In this document: piece after piece, positions 221 to 54,310 of the stretch
How the letters are laid out: each line of letters begins with the position of its first letter
How positions within the stretch are numbered: position 1 is the first letter of the stretch
NCBI GenBank assembly: GCA_002733765.1
Contig: NVWU01000014.1
Coordinates: forward strand, 66,608 to 130,607
Direction of reading: 5' to 3'
Origin: Colwellia sp.
GTDB lineage: Bacteria > Pseudomonadota > Gammaproteobacteria > Enterobacterales > Alteromonadaceae
DNA length: 64,000 bases
The notes under the pieces: generated by a model
The model's input: the letters and a program-made list of their open reading frames with translations, nothing else
Databases searched by the model: none
What the model was told of the DNA's origin: nothing
Position numbers and translations under genes: made by a program

Positions 221-1570
221 ATGGAAAAAGTATTAATTGTTGATGATGATAAAGGAATTCAAAAACAGCTGAAATGGAGTTTGTCTGATTACAGCCCAAT
301 TCTTGCTGGAGATCGGGAGGCCGCTATCGCGGCTGTTAGACGTCATGAGCCTAAAGTGGTTACTTTAGATTTAGGCTTGCCGCCAGATGCGGCTAATGCG
401 AGTGAGGGTTTAAAAGCACTAGAAGAAATTCTTGCTATAGCACCACACACAAAAATCATCGTTATCACCGGGAATGAGGATAGAACTAATGCTTTAAAGG
501 CTATTTCTGCCGGCGCTTATGATTTCTATCAAAAGCCTATTGATGCAGAAGTGATTAATGTCATTATTTCACGTGCGTTGACTTTAGCAAACATTGAAAG
601 TGAAAATCGCACAATGCGTGCAGTTACTGATAGTAATATTGGCATTATTGGTAATAGCGAAGCAGTTGAACGTTTATGTACTATGGTAAAGCGCATTGCA
701 CCTACAAATATTACCGCATTATTGTTAGGTGAGAGTGGTACGGGTAAAGAAGTAACCGCCAAAGCTATTCACCTTGCGAGCGAGCGGGCGAACAAGCCTT
801 TTATCGCTATTAATTGTGCCTCTATACCGGAAGCTCTATTAGAGAGTGAGCTATTTGGCTTTGAAAAAGGCGCATTTACTGGTGCTCATAAAACGACTAA
901 AGGAAAAATAGAATGTGCTGAAGGAGGGACCTTATTTCTTGATGAAATAGGTGATATGCCTTTTAATTTACAAGCTAAACTATTACGTTTTTTACAAGAA
1001 AAAATAATTGAACGACTAGGAGGAAGGCAGGAAATCCCGGTAAATGTTCGAGTGATTTGTGCAACCAATCAAAATTTAGAAGAAATGGTTGCTAATAAAG
1101 AATTTAGAGAAGATTTATTTTACCGAGTGAGCGAGATAACACTAAATATTCCCCCATTACGTGACCGAGACGAAGATGTTTTAATTCTTGCGCAATATTT
1201 TCTGCAACTTTATGCTACTGAGTATAAAAGTAATGCAAAATCATTCTCTGATGATGCGATTAGTGCTATTAAGGCCCATAAGTGGCCAGGTAATATTCGT
1301 GAATTACAAAACAAAGTAAAATCGTCTGTAGTGATGTGTACTGGGGTACAAGTGACAGCTTTTGACTTAGGGTTCTTTGATCATAATGATAGCAATTATG
1401 AATTATCATTAAACTTACGTACGGTAAGAGAAAAGGCCGAATCGATTGCGATTCAAAAGGCCTATGCGCTTTCTGAAGGTAATATGTCTAAGGCATCAGA
1501 ATTATTAGGCGTAACAAGGCCAACATTGTACTCACTAATTGAAAAATACGAATTAAATATTAATAGTTAA
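221..1570 (+). CDS. prsR: PEP-CTERM-system sigma-54-dependent response regulator (PrsR-like)
   Basis: N-terminal receiver domain (VLIVDDD, VTLDLGLPP, ...YQKPID), AAA+ sigma-54 interaction motifs GESGTGKE, GAFTGA, and a C-terminal Fis-type HTH (NMSKASELLGVTRPTLYSLI). Adjacent to a PEP-CTERM gene and TPR/PrsT-like genes. Confidence 0.92.
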   Translation: MEKVLIVDDDKGIQKQLKWSLSDYSPILAGDREAAIAAVRRHEPKVVTLDLGLPPDAANASEGLKALEEILAIAPHTKIIVITGNEDRTNALKAISAGAYDFYQKPIDAEVINVIISRALTLANIESENRTMRAVTDSNIGIIGNSEAVERLCTMVKRIAPTNITALLLGESGTGKEVTAKAIHLASERANKPFIAINCASIPEALLESELFGFEKGAFTGAHKTTKGKIECAEGGTLFLDEIGDMPFNLQAKLLRFLQEKIIERLGGRQEIPVNVRVICATNQNLEEMVANKEFREDLFYRVSEITLNIPPLRDRDEDVLILAQYFLQLYATEYKSNAKSFSDDAISAIKAHKWPGNIRELQNKVKSSVVMCTGVQVTAFDLGFFDHNDSNYELSLNLRTVREKAESIAIQKAYALSEGNMSKASELLGVTRPTLYSLIEKYELNINS

Positions 1571-1650: not shown

Positions 1651-1668
1651 GTGTCAGTTTTTTTTACA
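1651..1668 (+). promoter_or_regulatory. Putative PrsR enhancer/operator motif, copy A (GTGTCAGTTTTTTTTACA)
   Basis: Shares TGTC-N3-N3-TTTTACA with sites upstream of the two other PEP-CTERM genes (6564-6582 and 53374-53393). Centre about 97 bp upstream of the predicted sigma-54 TSS. Confidence 0.6.
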
Positions 1669-1731: not shown

Positions 1732-1745
1732 GGCATGTTTTTTGC
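1732..1745 (+). promoter_or_regulatory. Putative sigma-54 (-24/-12) promoter of the PEP-CTERM gene at 1806
   Basis: cGGCATGTTTTTTGCC: GG-N10-GC with exact spacing. Confidence 0.65.
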
Positions 1746-1805: not shown

Positions 1806-2594
1806 ATGTTTAAATGTAACTTGATGAAAAATTTTTTGGTGGCTGCTGCTCTCGTTGTAGCTCTACCTGCTGCGGCACAAATTGATACATGGGGTTTAAG
1901 CAACGGTGTTAAAAGTAGCAATACTACGTTGTTTAATTCTATGACTATTGATGGCTTATTAAATAACAATAGCCTAACGATTACTGGCTGGTCTGATACC
2001 GGTAACGGCGGCACCATTGCATCAGGTCAGTTAAAATATGATAATAGCTGGGGTTTGCAGTTGGTAAATGACTATGAGGGTGTTAACGATAACCCAGGTC
2101 ACTCTATTGATAGTTTTGATACTTATTTTGATATGGTACTGTTATCGTTTAACGAAAAAGTTGATTTAACTCGTTTTAATATAGGCTGGGCACAAGAAGC
2201 TAGTAATTTATCTAGAGCGGATATTTCTGTGGTAGCCTTTACTGGTACTGGTACTGCTAGTTTTGCAGGTAATACTTGGGGTGGCATTGCTAACTCTGGT
2301 GATTGGTCAACTATTGGCGAATATCGTGATGTTGCAGACTACTCTTACCAGGATGTTACTACCGATGTAAAATCTAAATATTGGCTTGTTGGTGCTTATA
2401 ATCCTATTTTTCAGAACCCAGGTGAAACTACGGGGAAATATGCAAGTGAGAATAATGACGGCTTTAAACTAGCATCGGTGAATGGTATAACTTCCGCTGC
2501 GGTTCCACAGCAAAGTGTGCCAGAGCCAAGCAGTTTAGCAATATTAGGTTTGGGATTGTTAGGCTTTTTATCAATGAGAAAAAAGCATAGTTAA
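1806..2594 (+). CDS. PEP-CTERM sorting domain-containing secreted protein
   Basis: The ORF track starts at 1614, but ATG 1806 fits better: signal peptide MFKCNLMKNFLVAAALVVALPAAAQ, and a sigma-54-like promoter at 1732-1745 lies inside the longer ORF. C-terminus VPEPSSLAILGLGLLGFLSMRKKHS is a classic PEP-CTERM tripartite signal. Confidence 0.9.
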   Translation: MFKCNLMKNFLVAAALVVALPAAAQIDTWGLSNGVKSSNTTLFNSMTIDGLLNNNSLTITGWSDTGNGGTIASGQLKYDNSWGLQLVNDYEGVNDNPGHSIDSFDTYFDMVLLSFNEKVDLTRFNIGWAQEASNLSRADISVVAFTGTGTASFAGNTWGGIANSGDWSTIGEYRDVADYSYQDVTTDVKSKYWLVGAYNPIFQNPGETTGKYASENNDGFKLASVNGITSAAVPQQSVPEPSSLAILGLGLLGFLSMRKKHS

Positions 2595-2662: not shown

Positions 2663-2687
2663 ATTGTCTGATTATGTAGGAATTTAC

Positions 2688-5501
2688 ATGAAGTTAATGC
2701 CAGTAGTTTTAGTTGTACTGCTTTTTGTTTCGGCTTTCGCAGTTTGTAAAGCTAAGGCCAATACGGTAGAAAATAGTTATGAAAATGCTGCGACGGCTTT
2801 TGCAGAGAATAAAGTAAATGATGCCTTTATTTTTGTTAAAAAAGCCTTACAAGAAAACCCAGAACACCTTCCATCTAAATTGTTAATTAGTAAGGTTTTT
2901 TTTGATGCGGGTAACTTGCTTGCTGTTGAAGAAGAGCTCTATGAAGCGTTAGAGTTAGGGGCAGATATTAACTTGGTTTTACCCGTGCTGGGTAGCACCT
3001 TAATTATTCAAAAGAAAAGTCAAGAATTACTTGAATTAGCAAAGTATCAAATGCAGTTTAATCGTCAAAGCCAATTTGAATGGGCGTTATTGATGGGGCA
3101 AGTTGAACTGTTAAATAACAATAAATATAAAGCTCAAATTGAGTTTGAAAAAGCACTAACTATATTACCAGCAAACTCTCGTAGTTTAAATTCACTGGCT
3201 CTGCTTTATATGGAATTTGGTTGGCAACAAAAAGCGAAAGATTTAATTGAACAATCATTAAACATAAATCCAAATAATGAAAAAACGTTAGTACTTAAAG
3301 GTGAGCTGCTATTAGCTGAGAATAAATCAGATTTGGCGTTAGCTTTATTTGAACAAGCGTTTGTTATTGATCCTAAAGATCCTAAAATCTTAAGAAACCT
3401 TGCCTTTTTAAATTTACGATTAAATAACTATTCACAAGTAAAAAAATATACTGAGCTAATTTTAGCACAATCTCCACTGGACCCCGCAGCAACACTAATT
3501 AGTGCTTGGCGTATGATGTTGGATGATAATGACAAAGAGCTTGCCAAGCAATCGTTGGCAGAGCTAAGTTCAGCATTATCTTTGTTGGATGAACACAATT
3601 TATCAAAAGATAAATTAACTAGTTTTATCCAAGGAGCATCAGAATATTTACAGGGCAATAATGAAAAAGCGCGTCAGTATTTATTTAGCCATTTAAATAC
3701 ATTTCCGGGAGATAAAAGCGCACTGAGAATGTTGCTTGAAATCCACGGCAATGATGATATGACCAGTAAATTAATTACTCTACTTGAAAGCAATACGAAA
3801 AATATTGTGGGAGATCTATATTTAGGTACTAAATTAGTACAGCTATATTTATCAGAACATAAAATATTAAGAGCTGAGTCATTACTTAATCAAATAACAG
3901 AAAACTTTCCTCAACACTCTTTTGTTATTTATTTAAAAGCGACTATTGCGCGTATGAGGAATAATCCTAACCAAGCGTTAGCTATATTAAATAAGCATAC
4001 ATTTTCAGAGATACCACCTTTATATTTTTTATTATTAAAAGGGGAGCTGCAGCTAGAATTAAATAATTTGAAGTCGGCGGGGGAAACAGCCACATTAGTT
4101 TTAGCTAATCAAAGTAAGAATATTGATGCTTATAATTTTATAGCCGCGGTCAACATTAAGAGTAACCAGCTTGTTAAGGCCATGTTGAATATTGAAAAAG
4201 TATTAGAACTAGATCATAAAAATATTACTGCTATGTTTAATAAAGCGATAGTGTTAAAGGCGAGAAATAAAAATTCTGAATTTAAATCTATTATTAATCA
4301 GATATTGTTAGATAATCCAGAACACACTACCTCACTTTTATTACTGGCGCGACATGAGCTATCACTTGGTAATACCAAGCAAGTTATTGCTCATACCAAT
4401 ACCGTATTATTGTATGATCTCAAAAATAAATACGCAGTTGAATTACAATTTGCGGCGTATACACAAGATAAAAATACCCGCTCGGCACTGATAGTGGCGA
4501 AAGAATTAATCAAAATTGACCGATTAAACCCAATCTATATTGTGGCTAGTATTCAACTACAAATAGAACTTGAGCAGTACCAACAAGTAGAACGTAATAT
4601 TAATATACTTTATGGGTTATGGAGTAATGAAAGTGATAAATTGTTGTATTTGTCTGAATTACAAACTAAAGCTAAGTTATATAAAAATGCGGTTAAAACG
4701 CTAAACAGAGCCAAGGAATTAACCCCTGAGTCTTTATCAATAGAATTGGCTTTAGCAAATAATTATTTACGTCTTAACGATGATGGAAAAGTTATCAAAG
4801 CATTCAGTCATATAGAGCGCCAATTTGGCCAGTCAGCGGAGTTATATTTGTTAAAGGGAGATATGGCGGTTTCTCATGATAATAGCAGCGAAGCATTCCA
4901 ATATTATGAGCAATCAATGGAGTTAAAGCCGTCTAATCCGCAGGCCATTATTAAACTTTATCAATTAAGTAAACAAGGGGTGGAAAATCATAAATTTACC
5001 GAAATTTTAGAAATTTTACTACTCGATGCAAGTACACCTGATTGGGTGCGTAAAATATTGGCAGACAGTTATTTGGTGCAAAATGAATTAGCTAAAGCTC
5101 AGCATCATTATGAAGTACTACTTACTAGAGATGATTTGGTTAGTGAGCCTTCTATCTTAAACAATTTGGCAAATATCTACGCACAGGATAATTTAGATAA
5201 AGCATTATTAACAGCCAAAAAAGGGCTTGAATTGGGTAGTAAAAATCCTTTACTTTTAGACACTATTGGTTGGTTGTTGACCAAACAAAAGCAATATGAT
5301 GAAGCGTTGTCTTTTCTACGTGACGCCTTTACTATGAATGCTAGTAGCCCAACTATAAGGTATCACTTAGGTTTTACCTTAAATGAGCTAGGACGTAGTA
5401 AAGAAGCAATTAAAGAGTTAAATGCTTCTTTAGCCAATGGAGATGATTTTTCTGAATATGAAGAGGCTAAATTATTACTTGAGCTACTTAAAAGCAATTA
5501 A
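2688..5501 (+). CDS. Large TPR-repeat protein, PrsT-like (PEP-CTERM system)
   Basis: ORF 2664-5501; ATG 2688 preceded by a TAGGAA-like RBS is the likelier start (MKLMPVVLVVLLFVSAFAVCKAKA signal sequence). Repeated TPR-like helices across ~900 aa (e.g. ALTILPANSRSLNSLALLYMEFGWQQKAKDLIEQSLNINPNN). Confidence 0.8.
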   Translation: MKLMPVVLVVLLFVSAFAVCKAKANTVENSYENAATAFAENKVNDAFIFVKKALQENPEHLPSKLLISKVFFDAGNLLAVEEELYEALELGADINLVLPVLGSTLIIQKKSQELLELAKYQMQFNRQSQFEWALLMGQVELLNNNKYKAQIEFEKALTILPANSRSLNSLALLYMEFGWQQKAKDLIEQSLNINPNNEKTLVLKGELLLAENKSDLALALFEQAFVIDPKDPKILRNLAFLNLRLNNYSQVKKYTELILAQSPLDPAATLISAWRMMLDDNDKELAKQSLAELSSALSLLDEHNLSKDKLTSFIQGASEYLQGNNEKARQYLFSHLNTFPGDKSALRMLLEIHGNDDMTSKLITLLESNTKNIVGDLYLGTKLVQLYLSEHKILRAESLLNQITENFPQHSFVIYLKATIARMRNNPNQALAILNKHTFSEIPPLYFLLLKGELQLELNNLKSAGETATLVLANQSKNIDAYNFIAAVNIKSNQLVKAMLNIEKVLELDHKNITAMFNKAIVLKARNKNSEFKSIINQILLDNPEHTTSLLLLARHELSLGNTKQVIAHTNTVLLYDLKNKYAVELQFAAYTQDKNTRSALIVAKELIKIDRLNPIYIVASIQLQIELEQYQQVERNINILYGLWSNESDKLLYLSELQTKAKLYKNAVKTLNRAKELTPESLSIELALANNYLRLNDDGKVIKAFSHIERQFGQSAELYLLKGDMAVSHDNSSEAFQYYEQSMELKPSNPQAIIKLYQLSKQGVENHKFTEILEILLLDASTPDWVRKILADSYLVQNELAKAQHHYEVLLTRDDLVSEPSILNNLANIYAQDNLDKALLTAKKGLELGSKNPLLLDTIGWLLTKQKQYDEALSFLRDAFTMNASSPTIRYHLGFTLNELGRSKEAIKELNASLANGDDFSEYEEAKLLLELLKSN

Positions 5502-5711: not shown

Positions 5712-6422
5712 TTATAAAGTGAATTTTTTGCGTCGAGCGGTAATACCAAGTAAGGCTAAAGCAAATAATGCAATAGACGTTGGCTCAGGAACATTTGTTG
5801 TTGGGCCGCAGTTGTTATCACACTTGTTACCGTAAAAGGATATGTGAGACAGCTCTTTATTCAATGGGGTAGTCCAGGCACCTGTCGTTACACTAACCGC
5901 TAAGCTTAGACAATTAATAGAGAACTCACCAGAAGATGCACAAGTAGCTCTATTGTCTGAGTTATCAGCAATCATCCAATGTAAAATAAAATCATTAGAA
6001 GCCTTTGTTACCCAATAAGAAACGCCGGGATATTCTGTGCCTGTGTAGTGCCATTGTCCTGTTTCATTATCACCAGGATGCATTTCATTTGTTTGATTAT
6101 TCACATCAAAGTTCCAATCAGAAGCTTGTGATGGTGCAACAAATGCATTCTCAATGTTACCATTATCATCTAGTCCAAATTTCCCCATTATTTCTGCAAA
6201 AATAGGGGTGTTTGGAGATGGAACATGTGTTATTTCACAGTTATCAAAGCCCTGACCAAAATATCCACTACAATCGTTATTATCTTCTGTAATTAATATA
6301 GAGACCTGAATTAGATCTCCTACAGTGGTTAGTGAGGCATTAGCAGCATAGCTCGTGAAAAGAGAAAGTCCGAATAATAAAGCTGTTGAAAAAATATTTT
6401 TTGAAAGCATAATTATTACCAT
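5712..6422 (-). CDS. PEP-CTERM sorting domain-containing secreted protein
   Basis: Signal peptide MLSKNIFSTALLFGLSLFTSYAANA and C-terminus NVPEPTSIALFALALLGITARRKKFTL. Several cysteines (NDC..DNC, CDNNC). Confidence 0.9.
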   Translation of the reverse strand: MVIIMLSKNIFSTALLFGLSLFTSYAANASLTTVGDLIQVSILITEDNNDCSGYFGQGFDNCEITHVPSPNTPIFAEIMGKFGLDDNGNIENAFVAPSQASDWNFDVNNQTNEMHPGDNETGQWHYTGTEYPGVSYWVTKASNDFILHWMIADNSDNRATCASSGEFSINCLSLAVSVTTGAWTTPLNKELSHISFYGNKCDNNCGPTTNVPEPTSIALFALALLGITARRKKFTL

Positions 6423-6479: not shown

Positions 6480-6493
6480 GCATAAAATATACC
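6480..6493 (-). promoter_or_regulatory. Putative sigma-54 promoter of the PEP-CTERM gene 5712-6422
   Basis: Minus strand cGGTATATTTTATGCA: GG-N10-GC, spacing exact; -24 element weaker than consensus. Confidence 0.5.
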
Positions 6494-6563: not shown

Positions 6564-6582
6564 AGTGTAAAATTTTTAGACA
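6564..6582 (-). promoter_or_regulatory. Putative PrsR enhancer/operator motif, copy C (TGTCTAAAAATTTTACACT)
   Basis: Identical to copy B (53374-53393) over TGTC-N3-AAATTTTACACT. Centre about 104 bp upstream of the predicted TSS. Confidence 0.65.
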
Positions 6583-6662: not shown

Positions 6663-9449
6663 TTGGATAGATATTTGAAAGCTTACCCGTATATGTTTTT
6701 ATTATTTATTTCTTTTTCGTTAGCGGCTTCACAAGAAGACAAGCTTTATGAAACCGCTCGTAGTGCTTTAAACGATAATAAATATAATGAGGCATTGATA
6801 CACGTAAAAAATATATTAAAAACATCACCAAAGCACTTAGCTTCACATATTTTAATGGCTGAAATATTACTGGCCAATGGTAGCGCTAGTGCGGCAGAAG
6901 TCGCATTGACTAAAGCCACTACTTTTGGTGCAAATAAGCAACAGTTACAATTATTGTTTGCAAAATCCTACATAATACAAGGACAGTATAATAAAACTTT
7001 AAACTACCTGCCTGAGCAAACTAATGATGATAAATTAGCCGCGAAAATTTATGTACTTCGTGGTGATGCTCATTTAGGGCTGCGACAATTAAAGCTTTCA
7101 CAAAATGCTTACAACATAGCGTTAACTTTTGATACTAGAAACATCGATGCCAAGTTAGGGTTAGCGCAAATTTCAGTTAACTATTTTCAATATCATCAAG
7201 CAGATAAGCTCGTTGATGAAGTGTTAGTTGGTTATATCCCACCAATAAAAGCTTGGAATTTGAAAGCGAGTATTCAGCAAAGTTTAGGTAATAACGAACT
7301 TGCACTTAAGGCAGTAAACCAAGCATTGTTAATTGATAAAAATAATATTCAATCATTAATTTTTGCAAGTACTATTAACATAGAATTACAACAATTTGCG
7401 TTAGCAGAACAATACGCAGATATGGTATTGAAGCAGACACCTAATGAACCTAAAGCCGAATTTCTCAAAGCGATGGTACAGGTTAGAAAAAATAAAAGTT
7501 CCGATCTTGAAAATTCGATAGAAAAAGTCGCACAAGTATTAGAACACCTGAGTGAAGATGTACTTCGTTCAAATCCTTCTTATTATTATTTAGCCAGTAT
7601 TATTTTATTTCACCAACAAAAGTATGAAGCAGCAAGGCAATATATAGCTTCCTATCTATTTGTAGATGAAAATAATATTAACGCTTTAACATTAGCGGCT
7701 ACTATTGAATTGATAGAAAAAAAACCAATGCAAGCGAAAGTCTTGTTAAGTAGGGCTAATTTTTTAGAGCCTAATAGCCCTAAAATATTATCAATGTTAG
7801 GCATGACCTACTTAGCGTTAAAACAGTATAAAAAAGCTCACTTCCACCTTGCGAAAGTTAAAAAACTGAAGCCTAATTTAGGAATTGCAGACACTCAACT
7901 TGCACAAAGTTATTTAGCGACAGGTCAGCCAGAAAAAGCGATTGAACATTTATTAACAGCCTCTGCAGCGGAGTACGACCCAACCATGGTAGGTTTATTG
8001 TTGGTTGAGTCATATATTAAGTCGGGAGAAATAGATAAGGGCATTAATGTTGCGAAAAACTTAGCTGAAAACATGCCCAGCAATGCTAATATTCAGCATC
8101 ATCTTGGTTATATTTACCAAATTTCAGGCGACATAAAGCAGGCAAAGAAGCAATTCGAACAAGCATTGGTAATTGAGCCAAATCATGTAAAGTCAGTAGT
8201 TAGTTTAGCAAACCTTGATTATAAAAAGGGTAATGTAGATGCTGCGATTAATCGTTTAAAAACAGCATTAATAATTTCAGTAAATGATACGTCTTTAATT
8301 ACAAACTTAGCTAAATTATATAACCGTTCTAATAATTCAGCTGCTAGCGTTATCTTACTAGAAGAGCAATTTAAGCTTGATAATAAAAATGAGGAATTGT
8401 TAAAAAGCTTAATTGTTAGTTATGTGGGTAATAAGCAGTTGATATCTGCCATAGAGACGTTGAATACTTATTTGTTGAATCAAAGGAAAACAGTTGACCT
8501 TTATCTTATACTGGCCAGTTTACAGACGATAAATTCAGATGTACTCTCTGCTGTGCATGCTTATAAATCAGCGATGAAGCAAGGTGGTGATAAAGGGGAA
8601 ATATTCTTGTTGATAGCTCAGGCTTATCAACGTTTTTCTAAAGTATCAGAAGCCATTGCAGCTTATAAAAAAGCGATGGCTTGGGATGAAAATAACGAGA
8701 AGGTAATAATAAGGTTAGCAGCGCTTTATAATGCTGAAAATAATACGGCTAGCGCAATCAAATTAATTAAAGCGTTTGAAGCTAATCACCAGTTATCCGG
8801 ACAATTAGTCGAAGTGTTAGCGAATTCATATTTGCGTGTAAAACAATATGATTTAGCTGAAAAATACTATAACAAACGTATTAAAATCACGAGTAATAGC
8901 AGTAGTATTGTGGGTTTGAACTTAGTATACAGAGCGACAAAGCGAACTAATGAAGCTATGACGGTATTAACCAAATCATTAAATAAAAACCCAAATAGTT
9001 TATTATTAAATACGGCATTAGCCGAGCTTTATATTGATCAATCTCAATGGCTCAAAGCCGATGGGATATATCAAACCTTAGTTACTTTGCACCCTAAGCA
9101 CCCGGCAATATTAAATAATGCCAGTTATGTAGCTTTGAGTTTAGCTGATTACCAACGGGCTGAGATGCTGATTAAAAAGTCATTGGCTATTGTTGATAAC
9201 CAACCTGACTCGTTAGATACACTAGGGTGGATTTATTATCACACGAAAGAGTTTAACGAAGCCTTACCTCTGTTTAGAAAAGCATTAGCCATCAATAATT
9301 CAAATCCGGCGGTAAAGTATCATTTAGCGTTGACGCTGAAGGCTCTTAAGAGAGATAAAGAGGCTATAAAACTGATGGTTGATGTAGTTAATTCAGATTA
9401 TATCCAAAAAGTGGATGCTGATGCATTATTGAAGCAGTGGTTAAAATAA
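6663..9449 (+). CDS. Large TPR-repeat protein, PrsT-like (PEP-CTERM system)
   Basis: 928 aa of TPR-like repeats after a hydrophobic N-terminus (YMFLLFISFSLAAS). ORF opens with TTG; true start uncertain. Confidence 0.78.
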   Translation: MDRYLKAYPYMFLLFISFSLAASQEDKLYETARSALNDNKYNEALIHVKNILKTSPKHLASHILMAEILLANGSASAAEVALTKATTFGANKQQLQLLFAKSYIIQGQYNKTLNYLPEQTNDDKLAAKIYVLRGDAHLGLRQLKLSQNAYNIALTFDTRNIDAKLGLAQISVNYFQYHQADKLVDEVLVGYIPPIKAWNLKASIQQSLGNNELALKAVNQALLIDKNNIQSLIFASTINIELQQFALAEQYADMVLKQTPNEPKAEFLKAMVQVRKNKSSDLENSIEKVAQVLEHLSEDVLRSNPSYYYLASIILFHQQKYEAARQYIASYLFVDENNINALTLAATIELIEKKPMQAKVLLSRANFLEPNSPKILSMLGMTYLALKQYKKAHFHLAKVKKLKPNLGIADTQLAQSYLATGQPEKAIEHLLTASAAEYDPTMVGLLLVESYIKSGEIDKGINVAKNLAENMPSNANIQHHLGYIYQISGDIKQAKKQFEQALVIEPNHVKSVVSLANLDYKKGNVDAAINRLKTALIISVNDTSLITNLAKLYNRSNNSAASVILLEEQFKLDNKNEELLKSLIVSYVGNKQLISAIETLNTYLLNQRKTVDLYLILASLQTINSDVLSAVHAYKSAMKQGGDKGEIFLLIAQAYQRFSKVSEAIAAYKKAMAWDENNEKVIIRLAALYNAENNTASAIKLIKAFEANHQLSGQLVEVLANSYLRVKQYDLAEKYYNKRIKITSNSSSIVGLNLVYRATKRTNEAMTVLTKSLNKNPNSLLLNTALAELYIDQSQWLKADGIYQTLVTLHPKHPAILNNASYVALSLADYQRAEMLIKKSLAIVDNQPDSLDTLGWIYYHTKEFNEALPLFRKALAINNSNPAVKYHLALTLKALKRDKEAIKLMVDVVNSDYIQKVDADALLKQWLK

Positions 9450-48633: not shown

Positions 48634-50004
48634 TTAGTTAAGTTGAAACTGCCAATGCAATTTTGTATTGCTGACCCCTTTAATCGCTTTTATCAATCGT
48701 TTCATTTTAAAGGGGGTTAATTGTGCTGTGGTTTTTTGGTCTATTTCATACTTAACTAATACAGTAGCAGCTTTTTTACCTTTAATAAGAGTATATACAG
48801 TCCAATTGTTTTCTATTAATTGTCCTGTAACATTCCAGCCTTCAGGAATTAATTTATTCCCATAAAAGCTCGGCTTACCATCTAAATTACTGCCGTCAAA
48901 ATGATAAATATAATATCGACTCTTGGCGTCATTATTTGTTAACTCTACTTTTTCAATGGATGTATAATAATGGACTTTAGGTTTTATGCTGTGATCATTT
49001 TCAATAGCTGCAATTTGTTTTGTAACGACATTATTAGTTACACTAGATGAAAGTGCTGTTTTTAGGATTGTTGATGGCAAAACTAAAAAAATTATCAGGC
49101 TGACAATAACTACCTTGTTTGGCGTCTCTGCCCAGTTTATTTTTGTTTTTGCTTTTAGATCAAATAAATCATTGTCCGCTAAGCTATTCCCCCAGCGAAA
49201 CAATAAAAACATGAATGGAATATAGAGATACCAACCAAAGGTATTATGATCTTCCATTAAACTACTTTCCATATTTGAGTACTCACCGATAAGAATTAAG
49301 GCGGTAATTCGTATCCAGTTTGTTAGTAAAGAGCCTAATATAGCGACAATAAAAAATATCACCGCACGTTTAACATTTTTAATATAAAGAAAAATAAATA
49401 ATGAACTAATCGCTAAAGAAACAATAAGGTACCTTAAGCCGCTACAACCTCCAGCTATTTCAAAAACACCCGCGGGTATAGTAACTAATTGACCTTCTAC
49501 ATAGGTTGGAACTTCAGTGAAATTCATGATGAAGGTAACGGCAGCCACGGAAATGTTTTGTAAAATTGGTGTTAGTATTCCCCAAAAAGGAAATATAAAA
49601 ATTAAAAAAGCAGTGGGAAATAACATTTGCCAGCTAAATCGATAAATCATCGGGATACTAGCAAGGCAAACTAATAAAAATGACAACCAATAACCAATAC
49701 TTATTTGTGCATTAGTGGTAATAAAAAGTAAATAGCAACAGGCAATTAACAATAAGGTAAAGGGGATGGATATTTTTTCTCTAAATTGAAGTTTGCCAAT
49801 CAGGGAAAGTTGATAATATAAATAAAGGCTAATAAAAGGGATTAAAAAGGCGTGCGAGTATGTACCATCATCAAAACCGTGACGCCATAAGGTGATTAAA
49901 ATAGGGATGTTGAGTACAGAAATCAGTAAAAAAATGGCGATTAACGCTATAAAAGGTTTATTTATATTACTTAGTGATGTTTTATTGTTGTTATTAATAT
50001 TCAT
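48634..50004 (-). CDS. xrtA: Exosortase A with fused EpsI-like C-terminal region
   Basis: Multi-TM protein with exosortase catalytic blocks: [16 protein letters not shown] (Cys), [18 protein letters not shown] (Arg), [22 protein letters not shown] (His). C-terminal soluble EpsI-like domain. ATG at 50004 chosen over 50052. Confidence 0.93.
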
Positions 50005-50160
50005 TACAGCGTTAATTTTTATCTGAAATCCATTTAATGGTAACTCTAGCAATACTGAACTAAAGTTACCATTTTTTTGTTAATGTGACGTATCATTATT
50101 GTTAGTTGATCTCTTGTAGATAACTTTCATCTTAAAAGACATTGAACCATATAGTTATTT

Positions 50161-50594: not shown

Positions 50595-53372
50595 ATGAAA
50601 CAAAATATTATAAATATAGCTCTGGCATCTGTTTTAGCTATTGGTATAGGGGCTTGTTCGCCAAGTTTAACTTCAGTTCAACATATAGAGAAAGGGAAAT
50701 CATATTTAGCAGAGAATAAAAATAACGAAGCAATAATAGAGTTAAAAAATGCGATAAAGAAAGATGCTAAAAATCTAGATGCAAGATTGATACTAGGCAA
50801 AACTTACCTGTCTCAGGGGGATTATAAAAATGCTAAAAAGGAGTTAGAGCGCTCTATAAAATTAGGAGCGACTTCTGAATATACCACCCCAAACTTAGCA
50901 GAAATTTACTATAAACTTAATGACTTTGACAATGTATATAACTTAGTGGCTTCGGCTGAACTGTTACATGATGAACAGTATGTAACAGTATTAACCTATG
51001 CAGGTATGGCTGCAATCTATGAGAAAAAGTTTGATAAGGCCCAAGGTTACTTTGATAGAGCAATACAAATTAGTGAGGATTTTTTATATAGCAAAATTAG
51101 CCGAGGGTACATGGCTAGAACTGAAGAGGAAATAAGCAGTGCCATTGAATCCGTTGAAATCTTAATGGCAAGTAATCCTGAAATAGTGGATTTAATTTTA
51201 TTAAAAGGTTATTTATTACAATCTACTAAGCAATATCAAACTGCTGCGGAAACATTTACTGAGTATAGTGTCAAACGACCAAAAGAGTCTTCTATTTTAT
51301 TTTTTATCGCTCAAAACTATATAAGAGCTAATCAACTTGAACGTGCAGAGCCAATTGTGGATGCTATTTTGAAAATAGCTAACAGTCACCCTTTGGCAAA
51401 TCAGTTAAAAGCACAAATATTATTTGATAATAAAAATTATGCTTTAGCTAAGCAGCATGCTAATACCGCTCTTCAACAGCAACCAGATTTAGCGCTCTCT
51501 CATATTATTGCAGGCTTAAGCGCGTATTATGTAAAAGAGTATGAAAGTACTTATCAGCATTTATCTAAAGTATCAAAGCGACTACCTAAGCAATCTTTGG
51601 TTAATCGGATTTTTATTGAAGTTCAGTTATTGCTTGGTTACGAAGTTGAAGCATTAGATTCTATTCAACAATTAATGGATAGCAATAATATAGATTTTAA
51701 CTCACTGCTAACCCTGAGTAATGAACTTATTAAATCGGGAAACAATATAGCGGCTAAAGCGCTAATAGATAAAGCCGGAGTATTGGCTGACAAGGATCCA
51801 AGTAACTTATTAAGACAAGGCTTTTTAAGATTAAGGCTTGATGATGTTGAACTTGGTATTGCTGCTTTAGAAGAGTCTTTAGCATTAGATCCCAGTTCTG
51901 ACACAGCGGAGGGAGGCTTAGTTATTGGGTATTTGCAAAATAAGCAGTATGATTCAGTGCTAAAAATAGCCAAAAAATGGCAAGAAAATTCGGACAAAAA
52001 GGTATCGGGACTATTATTACAAGCAACTATTGAGGCTGAACAACAACTTTATGGTGAAGCAAAAGTAACATTGAAAGACGTTTTTACTATAGAGCCGAAT
52101 AATATTGCCGCTCATTTAAATATGGCTATTATTGAACATAAGTCTGGCAATTATTCAGTTGCATTTGAATCATATAAACAAGTATTAACGTTAAAGCCTA
52201 ATCACGAAAAAGCAATTTTTTTAATTACCAAATTAACTATCGATTCACCGAGTTTATTACCAGAAGTTAAGCGTTCTTTGCAAGAGCTTCTTGCATTAAA
52301 TAATAATATGAGCATTAAATTAGGACTAGCCAATGTATTTCGCACAGAAGGTAATCTTGGTAAAGCTTTAGAGTTATATGTTGAGTTAATGGCAACAGGG
52401 TCTCTTGATGGTATCGAAATTATGGTTGGCGATCTATACAGTTTAACTAATAAACTAGATAGGGCTATAGATACCTACAAAAATTATTATGAAAAAAACA
52501 AAACAAATTTGATGGCGGGAAAACGCTTGATCGTTGCGTATGAGCAAGCAAAAGAATACGCATTGGCTGCTAGCCTAATTGGAGCAATGAGAAATTATCA
52601 TCGTAACTTAGATGGGCTAGTTTTATTGAATGGTTATTTTAAATCTATGGCTAAACAGGATGTTTCTTCTACTGATTTAACTATTATAAAAGGTTCACGG
52701 CAATTAAATAATCACTGGTTAGCTAATCAAATGCATGGACATATTGCCTATAACGAAAAAAATTATGATCAAGCTGTTAACGAATTTGAGTCAGGGTATC
52801 AAAAAAATCCAACACAACTTACCTTAACGACTTTATTTAAAGCGCTTTCTTTAAATGGTCAAAATGATAAGGTGATTGAGCTGAGTCTTGATTATTTGAA
52901 AAAAAATGAAGACAGCCGTTTAGCAAAAATTTATTTAGCAAATGCCTACTTAAATACAGCACAAAATGATAAAGCGCTAGCTCTGTACAGAGAGTTAGTG
53001 GATAAGTTCACAGGTAACGCTATTTTACTCAATAACCTTGCTTATTTGGAAATGCAACAAGGCAATAGCTTAGCCGCAATAAAGTACGCAAGAAAAGCAT
53101 TAACACTCTCTCCAAATTCCATCACGGTTATAGATACCTATGCGCAAGCACTAGCATCGAATAAGGAATATAATCAGTCGTTAGATGCTTATGATACAGC
53201 ATTAGTATTAGCCGATGAGAGCGAGAGTTTAGATATTATATTTGCTAAAGCGAAGTTATTGCTCACTATGGGCAATAAAAAAGTAGCTCGGCAGTTACTT
53301 TTGAGTATGACGGCACCATCAAATAGTGCAATGCAAATAAAAATTGATAAGTTATTAAGTGAGACTCGCTAA
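50595..53372 (+). CDS. prsT: PEP-CTERM system TPR-repeat lipoprotein PrsT
   Basis: Lipobox AIGIGACSPS; KGKSYLAENKNNEAIIELKNAIKKDAKNLDARLILGKTYLSQGDYKNAKKELERSIKLGA is typical of PrsT; TPRs over 925 aa. Confidence 0.92.
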   Translation: MKQNIINIALASVLAIGIGACSPSLTSVQHIEKGKSYLAENKNNEAIIELKNAIKKDAKNLDARLILGKTYLSQGDYKNAKKELERSIKLGATSEYTTPNLAEIYYKLNDFDNVYNLVASAELLHDEQYVTVLTYAGMAAIYEKKFDKAQGYFDRAIQISEDFLYSKISRGYMARTEEEISSAIESVEILMASNPEIVDLILLKGYLLQSTKQYQTAAETFTEYSVKRPKESSILFFIAQNYIRANQLERAEPIVDAILKIANSHPLANQLKAQILFDNKNYALAKQHANTALQQQPDLALSHIIAGLSAYYVKEYESTYQHLSKVSKRLPKQSLVNRIFIEVQLLLGYEVEALDSIQQLMDSNNIDFNSLLTLSNELIKSGNNIAAKALIDKAGVLADKDPSNLLRQGFLRLRLDDVELGIAALEESLALDPSSDTAEGGLVIGYLQNKQYDSVLKIAKKWQENSDKKVSGLLLQATIEAEQQLYGEAKVTLKDVFTIEPNNIAAHLNMAIIEHKSGNYSVAFESYKQVLTLKPNHEKAIFLITKLTIDSPSLLPEVKRSLQELLALNNNMSIKLGLANVFRTEGNLGKALELYVELMATGSLDGIEIMVGDLYSLTNKLDRAIDTYKNYYEKNKTNLMAGKRLIVAYEQAKEYALAASLIGAMRNYHRNLDGLVLLNGYFKSMAKQDVSSTDLTIIKGSRQLNNHWLANQMHGHIAYNEKNYDQAVNEFESGYQKNPTQLTLTTLFKALSLNGQNDKVIELSLDYLKKNEDSRLAKIYLANAYLNTAQNDKALALYRELVDKFTGNAILLNNLAYLEMQQGNSLAAIKYARKALTLSPNSITVIDTYAQALASNKEYNQSLDAYDTALVLADESESLDIIFAKAKLLLTMGNKKVARQLLLSMTAPSNSAMQIKIDKLLSETR

Positions 53373-53373
53373 T

Positions 53374-53393
53374 GTGTCAGTAAATTTTACACT
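53374..53393 (+). promoter_or_regulatory. Putative PrsR enhancer/operator motif, copy B (GTGTCAGTAAATTTTACACT)
   Basis: Matches copies A and C over TGTC-N3-N3-TTTTACA; GTGT...ACAC imperfect palindrome. Centre about 106 bp upstream of the predicted sigma-54 TSS. Confidence 0.65.
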
Positions 53394-53465
53394 AGTTGGT
53401 TCTTAATTTTATAACACTCTGACATGCCTTTGTAAGATTTTGTTTTATTTATGTTTTATATACTT

Positions 53466-53479
53466 GGCAATATACTTGC
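53466..53479 (+). promoter_or_regulatory. Sigma-54 (-24/-12) promoter of the PEP-CTERM gene at 53528
   Basis: TTGGCAATATACTTGCA: near-consensus GG-N10-GC with TGGCA and TTGCA. Confidence 0.8.
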
Positions 53480-53527: not shown

Positions 53528-54310
53528 ATGTTAAATACAATGAAGAAAAAATTAGCGGCTGTAGCGATATTAACAGCAATAGCGTTACCAGCCTCAGCGT
53601 CTATAGTAACAGTTGATGATGGCTCAGATGCATACACATTTGATCAATTAGTAGTAACAACAGAGGGTGATTCTGTTATTACTCAAACATTTGTTGATGG
53701 TGTTAATGATACTTTTGTTGAAATCGGATTAACTGCTGTTGGTACTTTTAAAAATGGTGGCGCTACAGTTGGATTTCCAACTGAGTATGATTTGATTTTT
53801 GATATCAGTCTTATTGGTACTGCGGCAACTACTGAAACTTTCCTTGGAAGTGGTATATTTGATATTGATGTTACCTTTAGTAATGCAAGTGTAGCTACTC
53901 TTTACCATGATGACGTGCCTTTTGGTGGTCTAAATGGTGTTAGTACAGCTATAGCAAATTTATCAGGTGCTACAGGTGGATGTGACCTTCAGGTTACAGC
54001 TGCCAATCCTGCCGCAACTACAAATAACGGCACATGTAATGTTAGCTTCGATTTTGACGCTCTTTTAGCTGGATGGTTTACAACTAGCTGGGGTGAAGAT
54101 TTTACTACATTGGCTAATATGCCAACAATAGATTTTTCATTAGATATTGACATTACTGAATATAATGTTGATAGCCCAGCACCTGGCATCACAACTATTA
54201 AGGTTGCTCATGACGGTAGTGCTGTAATCAACGTTCCAGAGCCTACTACAATTGCTATTTTAGGTTTAGGCTTATTAGGTTTAGCTGGCTCACGTCGTCG
54301 TAAGTCTTAA
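53528..54310 (+). CDS. PEP-CTERM sorting domain-containing secreted protein
   Basis: Signal peptide MKKKLAAVAILTAIALPASAS; C-terminus NVPEPTTIAILGLGLLGLAGSRRRKS. Confidence 0.94.
   Translation: MLNTMKKKLAAVAILTAIALPASASIVTVDDGSDAYTFDQLVVTTEGDSVITQTFVDGVNDTFVEIGLTAVGTFKNGGATVGFPTEYDLIFDISLIGTAATTETFLGSGIFDIDVTFSNASVATLYHDDVPFGGLNGVSTAIANLSGATGGCDLQVTAANPAATTNNGTCNVSFDFDALLAGWFTTSWGEDFTTLANMPTIDFSLDIDITEYNVDSPAPGITTIKVAHDGSAVINVPEPTTIAILGLGLLGLAGSRRRKS

Follow-up and report, generated by a model that had tools for sequence, protein, structure and literature searches.

The exosortase substrate genes of Colwellia, Thalassotalea and Paraglaciecola probably belong to two regulons. One would depend on PrsR and sigma-54. 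The other would use a sigma-70-type promoter with the box TTGGACAGTTTAGCCATATTT, activated by a regulator with AraC-HTH and HDOD domains that is usually encoded beside one of its targets. The box was almost free of false positives in 84,980 genomes, and PrsR appears to feed an additional tier through an orphan OmpR-type protein. In the window, the 64-kb stretch of DNA analysed here (part of contig 20 in a genome of 4.05 Mb), three sites are very likely PrsR operators that lie on a fixed helix face upstream of sigma-54 (-24/-12) promoters and switch on the genes of exosortase substrates, proteins destined for the cell surface. The sequence and position of the sites, their genome-wide enrichment before substrates, their co-occurrence with PrsR and the helical phasing of their spacers were observed directly, and from them we infer PrsR binding, PrsR phosphorylation and sigma-54 dependence in this strain.

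In the proposed mechanism, the kinase PrsK would activate PrsR by phosphorylation, and phosphorylated PrsR would bind an imperfect palindrome of 17 bp located about 100 bp upstream. Bound PrsR would contact the sigma-54 RNA polymerase through DNA looping and the promoter would open, with exosortase substrates being produced when the PrsK signal is present. Two of the three genes that this scheme leaves uncovered would use a sigma-70-type promoter that includes a box of 21 bp, for which an AraC-HTH/HDOD protein is the likely activator.

The composite signature in the window

The window contains the standard PEP-CTERM/exosortase neighbourhood, comprising prsR, an exosortase gene, PrsT genes and many exopolysaccharide genes (Table 1). 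By sequence matches of loci L095 and L107 to the genomes G195 and G499, which are of its own genus, it shares this genus with Colwellia echini and Colwellia sp. 75C3. The initial annotation had taken prsR for the gene of a sigma-54 activator, and its product scored well above the cut-off of the PrsR family model. It had also placed a shared operator and a sigma-54 promoter before all three PEP-CTERM genes of the window, and indeed no window gene apart from the three downstream ones exceeded the PEP-CTERM cut-off. An open reading frame at 1614-2594 was called too far 5′, the PEP-CTERM gene starting at about 1806.

All six strings (three operators and three GG-N10-GC elements) were found at the coordinates and on the strands claimed for them. 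The pattern TGTC-N3-W3-TTTTACA, said to be common to the three sites, occurred exactly three times in the window, with a mean of 0.02 in shuffled sequence and no shuffle reaching three. Counted from the final A of ACA to the initial G of GG, the spacers were 63, 72 and 74 bp, so the 64-73 bp first given was approximately but not exactly right. With GC set at -12, the operator centres fell near -97, -105 and -108, in approximate agreement with the claimed -97 to -106. The proposed GTG...CAC half-palindrome was retained in its core (TGT...ACA) and dropped in its outer bases: among 39 family sites, G preceded TGTC in 17 and C followed ACA in 19. Since these outer positions are weakly conserved, the element is best given as a 17-bp imperfect palindrome, TGT-N11-ACA, with the operator consensus TGTCAG-N-WWWTTTTACA. 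The invariance of TGTC and TTTACA in the logo arises by construction, because the search pattern fixes both. In motif 2 of the family sites, T preceded GG in 33 of 39 and GC in 38 of 39.

The signature could have arisen by chance from AT-rich intergenic DNA and an easily matched GG-N10-GC. The latter is common by itself (211 on both strands of the window) and loosely matched motif 1 was no more frequent than its control; at two mismatches, motif 1 alone gave 642 matches genome-wide against 708 for the reversed control and was discarded as uninformative. However, the composite with GG-N10-GC 50-80 bp downstream occurred exactly three times in the window, against 0.00 expected from shuffling, and 11 times in the genome, against none, with strong enrichment at targets and phased spacing. 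The composite counts already refute chance, which retains practically no probability.

Table 1. Features of the window and of the second promoter class (coordinates refer to the window unless a contig is given)
Feature	Position	Strand	Basis or remark
prsR, NtrC-type sigma-54 activator, presumed operator binder	221..1570	+	TIGR02915 747.2 bits, cut-off 502.6, model positions 1-444 of 445
PrsR operator (motif 1) TGTCAGTTTTTTTTACA	1652..1668	+	string match and consensus
Sigma-54 -24/-12 element GGCATGTTTTTTGC	1732..1745	+	spacer 63
PEP-CTERM protein gene 1	1806..2594	+	TIGR02595 over cut-off at C20:69124; start set at signal-peptide ATG
Three PrsT-type TPR genes, divergent	2664-5501, 6663-9449, 50595-53372		all over TIGR02917 cut-off; each adjoins one of the three PEP-CTERM genes
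PEP-CTERM protein gene 2	5712..6422	-	TIGR02595 over cut-off at C20:72331
Sigma-54 element GGTATATTTTATGC	6480..6493	-	spacer 72
PrsR operator TGTCTAAAAATTTTACA	6566..6582	-	string match
Exosortase, XrtA/EpsH type, presumed processing enzyme	48634..50052	-	TIGR02602 198 bits, cut-off 105.55
PrsR operator TGTCAGTAAATTTTACA	53375..53391	+	string match
Sigma-54 element GGCAATATACTTGC	53466..53479	+	spacer 74
PEP-CTERM protein gene 3	53528..54310	+	TIGR02595 over cut-off at C20:120840
Second PEP-CTERM promoter box TTGGACAGTTTAGCCATATTT	G000:C13:34392-34416 and C32:171650-171674		outside window; also L069-L080, L084-L116
AraC-HTH and HDOD regulator	G000:C32:172469-173632	-	also L147-L162, L177-L190; usually convergent to box-bearing PEP-CTERM gene

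The composite site in the genome and its relatives

The genome was scanned by pattern for the strict composite TGTC-N7-TTTACA-N50-80-GG-N10-GC, with the reversed pattern as control. This gave 11 sites and none in the control; ten are distinct, the C3 and C13-end copies being identical. The enrichment at PEP-CTERM genes that the initial annotation had asked for was present, with ten of the 11 sites preceding PEP-CTERM genes or operons, nine of them directly before genes over the TIGR02595 cut-off. On contig C18, the site lies before a 937-aa PKD-domain gene that is followed after 44 bp by a PEP-CTERM gene, and the two look like an operon (L049:2021-5520). The PKD-domain protein has a dockerin-like calcium-loop tail and the body of its PEP-CTERM partner is, by eye, cohesin-like. 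A surface-anchoring pair is possible.

In total, 13 PEP-CTERM genes of the genome exceeded the TIGR02595 cut-off, or 12 if the identical C3/C13-end pair is counted as one gene. Counting distinct copies, the composite site had a recall of 9/12 and a precision of 9/10 for these genes. The signature does not predict every exosortase substrate gene, as had been suggested, since no site accompanies three of the 13, and one of the sites lies before a regulator gene. Two of the three site-less genes have another promoter type. For the third, an open frame of 1448 codons on C10, neither the PrsR composite nor the second box was found. It encodes a repeat-rich PEP-CTERM protein and is divergent from a hybrid kinase/receiver/AraC-type regulator (G000:C10:36570-40904; L067, L068).

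Other patterns were tried on the same genome. A narrow, guessed sigma-54 consensus (TGGCAC-N5-TTGC) gave no matches because the -24 box is looser here. Loosening TGTC to TGTM added two sites, of which the one on C26 lies in coding DNA near ribosomal genes and was taken as chance. The one on C5 is a near-perfect palindrome, TGTAAGGATCCTTTACA, with -24/-12 at the phased spacing of 73. It precedes a ShlB/FhaC-type transporter gene and a giant partner running off the contig (L064:2913-4619, L066:1-8955), a secretion gene pair that is a possible PrsR target. A tandem motif-1-like pair (C26:288879-288917) had no phased same-strand -24/-12 and precedes a short-chain dehydrogenase; it was rejected.

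The site before a regulator gene is on C19 (G000:C19:49141-49245, minus strand). The gene product (L047:6184-6993) is an orphan of 269 aa whose C-terminal domain is of the OmpR type and in which no receiver domain was detected. An orthologue from another genus of the family (L082, 49% identity) has its own composite (TGTCTGTTTTTTTTACA, spacer 75, GGTTCGTTTTTTGC), and in both genomes the divergent neighbour of the OmpR-type gene encodes an SDN-repeat protein with a signal peptide. A third orthologue sits at a contig end, where the upstream region could not be judged. Through this regulator PrsR may reach a second tier of control.

Of the 28 composite sites that could be evaluated in three relatives, 27 preceded a secreted protein with a C-terminal motif-helix-basic (sorting-type) tail. 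Several of these tails are non-PEP (STPNAIAL, SAPTTLAI, SNPSSIAL, NAPLTSGL), and when nine variant tails were scored, six fell short of the TIGR02595 cut-off (six of 27 proteins). Since these lie behind composite sites, the site seems to point to exosortase substrates overlooked by the tail model. Judged from their sequences, the low-scoring proteins are probable substrates, and promoter and tail together recover more substrates than the tail alone.

Among 395 genomes of the order, 99 had PrsR over the cut-off and 296 did not. The former contained 524 sites against 67 control matches (mean 5.29 and 0.68), and the latter 166 against 151 (mean 0.56 and 0.51). At least three sites were found in 71 of the 99 PrsR genomes and in nine of the 296 others (Fisher p about 1e-44, overstated, like any such genome count, because the species are related). 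The absence of a real excess where PrsR is missing is informative despite this relatedness. Ten PrsR-bearing genomes, all of genus g24, had no composite site (G007, G032, G053, G091, G107, G122, G136, G162, G196 and G236), and their PrsR operator may have diverged from the pattern.

TGTC...TTTACA could also be bound by another sigma-54 activator of the same genome, with PrsR a mere phylogenetic passenger. PrsR has many NtrC-type relatives, a first-look search did return dozens of PrsR-like activator candidates per genome, and other parts of the exosortase system co-occur with the composite site as PrsR does. However, site counts rose above background only where PrsR exceeded its family cut-off, other NtrC-type activators without PrsR brought no excess, and prsR lies directly upstream of one composite-site target gene. 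A different activator is quite unlikely. The reading of the sites as PrsR operators with sigma-54 promoters appears well supported by their enrichment before PEP-CTERM genes and by the way they track PrsR across the 395 genomes.

The spacers of 120 family sites formed three clusters, at about 51, 62-64 and 74 bp, and the window sites fall in the 63 and 72-74 classes. Since each step of 11-12 bp fits one DNA turn, the operator keeps roughly the same face towards the polymerase. Phasing was not accepted as support for direct looping, a reading that ignores that many family sites are orthologous.

A probable second promoter box and an AraC-HDOD regulator

Two of the site-less PEP-CTERM genes (C13:34542 and C32:171731) share TTGGACAGTTYAGCCATATTTATAAA followed by TTATACTAG. 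At up to three mismatches, the 25-mer occurs in the genome only at these two places. In 150 family genomes we found 12 copies in nine genomes, with none in the control, and all 12 precede PEP-CTERM genes. An exact scan for TGGACASTTYAGCCATATT in 84,980 species genomes returned 33 stretches, where about seven would be expected by chance on a rough estimate from base counts. Four of them (L098, L100, L103, L108) come from records that are unrelated or placed differently, and no PEP-CTERM gene was seen behind them. The remaining 29 are from Colwellia, Thalassotalea and Paraglaciecola. Genes with PEP or PAP tails follow 25 of these, three run into the end of the locus, and behind the last (L090) there seems to be a decayed gene remnant. 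Chance matches aside, the box is limited to Colwellia and its relatives across these species genomes.

Of 31 distinct promoters, 30 have a -10-like hexamer (TATACT, TATTAT or TATAAT) at an offset of 38-40 nt from the start of the box, and in 24 the offset is exactly 39 nt. With this offset, the -35 position falls at the 3′ end of the box, as in a class II activated sigma-70 promoter. The PrsR/sigma-54 composite was absent from all 31.

Clustering of neighbouring genes identified a convergent AraC-type gene beside the box-bearing gene in 16 loci. Its product exceeds the cut-offs of both AraC HTH models (PF12833, 42.7 bits; PF00165, 35.9 bits) and has an HDOD domain (PF08668), and within the protein conservation is highest in the HTH region. 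A close orthologue (E below 1e-90) was present in 16 of the 150 family genomes, including all nine with the box, and the box was absent from all 134 family genomes without the regulator (Fisher p about 1e-10, its significance overstated because of relatedness). A box within four mismatches of 21 was found at 16 of 16 orthologue loci and at none of 80 shuffled loci. All 14 further genomes reached through the species-wide box loci, several of which repeat family genomes, also have the orthologue. In three of these (L177, L181, L188) no box was found at the regulator locus itself, so linkage alone does not explain the pairing of box and regulator. We infer from this co-occurrence that the AraC-HDOD protein probably binds the second box.

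The box might instead be a conserved leader or RNA element that a single ancient family of PEP-CTERM genes has kept by descent, and not a regulator site. About half of the copies precede a single orthologous family (SLITNGSFE type) beside the AraC-HDOD gene, as this would predict. However, the box also stands at other loci of the same genomes before several families with unrelated mature sequences (distinguished by eye as SLITNGSFE, GLILEEDFDPI, LITFDTKSL, GLIGPSGWNGD, GVINLGSADG and ALIFEEDFSGG), and the near-constant hexamer offset is promoter geometry. We regard descent as an unlikely explanation and favour an activated promoter. The putative switch formed by the second box and the AraC-HDOD protein has apparently not been described before.

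Comparison with known systems

In NtrC/NifA-type systems, a palindromic activator site lies about 100 bp upstream of a -24/-12 promoter. The PrsR sites have the same layout, but their operator sequence differs and there is usually a single compact site per promoter. Class II sigma-70 promoters of the AraC/XylS type have an asymmetric site of about 20 bp that abuts or overlaps the -35, at a fixed distance from the -10, and a regulator with an AraC-type HTH. The second box shares this layout, although its likely regulator also has an HDOD domain at the C-terminus and appears to target exosortase substrates. No AraC-HDOD regulon of exosortase substrates was found in the literature searched.

In Aquincola tertiaricarbonis, transcription of pepA is RpoN1-dependent and starts from a mapped -24/-12 promoter (Xia et al. 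2023, PMC9850573). That gene resembles those of the window in being a PEP-CTERM gene with a -24/-12 promoter and a predicted upstream enhancer. It differs in belonging to another bacterium, and in that study the role of PrsR itself was not demonstrated.

The closest precedent is Haft et al. 2006 (PMC1569441), compared here through the portion of its text that was consulted. There, motif 1 has 17 nt with TTTACA at its 3′ end, the spacer is 62.8 +/- 10.6 nt (range 32-92), and motif 2 is the sigma-54 -24(GG)/-12(GC) element, with PrsR the proposed binder. The motif pair was found before 99 of 167 proteobacterial PEP-CTERM genes. All three window sites have the 17-nt motif with its TTTACA end and spacers within the published range; their GG-N10-GC fits -24/-12, and they precede PEP-CTERM genes in a genome with PrsR. 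On that text, the PrsR interpretation is not new, as both the motif pair and its assignment to PrsR were published, and the initial annotation rederived them from three copies. The mechanism given for the window sites is thus very probably right, but the kind of site was already known. Discrete helical phasing of the spacer, the conserved OmpR-type regulator as a target, and the use of the site as a guide to substrates that score under the sorting-signal cut-off are not mentioned in that portion. Its spacer, reported there as mean, SD and range only, is what a mixture of the 51, 63 and 74 classes would give. The new content of the present analysis is the phasing, the conserved OmpR-type target, the low-scoring substrates and, above all, the AraC-HDOD-linked promoter class. 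The close of Haft et al. (PMC1569441) states that further regulators and DNA motifs were still to be found, many PEP-CTERM genes having no PrsR site, and the second box with its AraC-HDOD partner is one concrete answer to that call.
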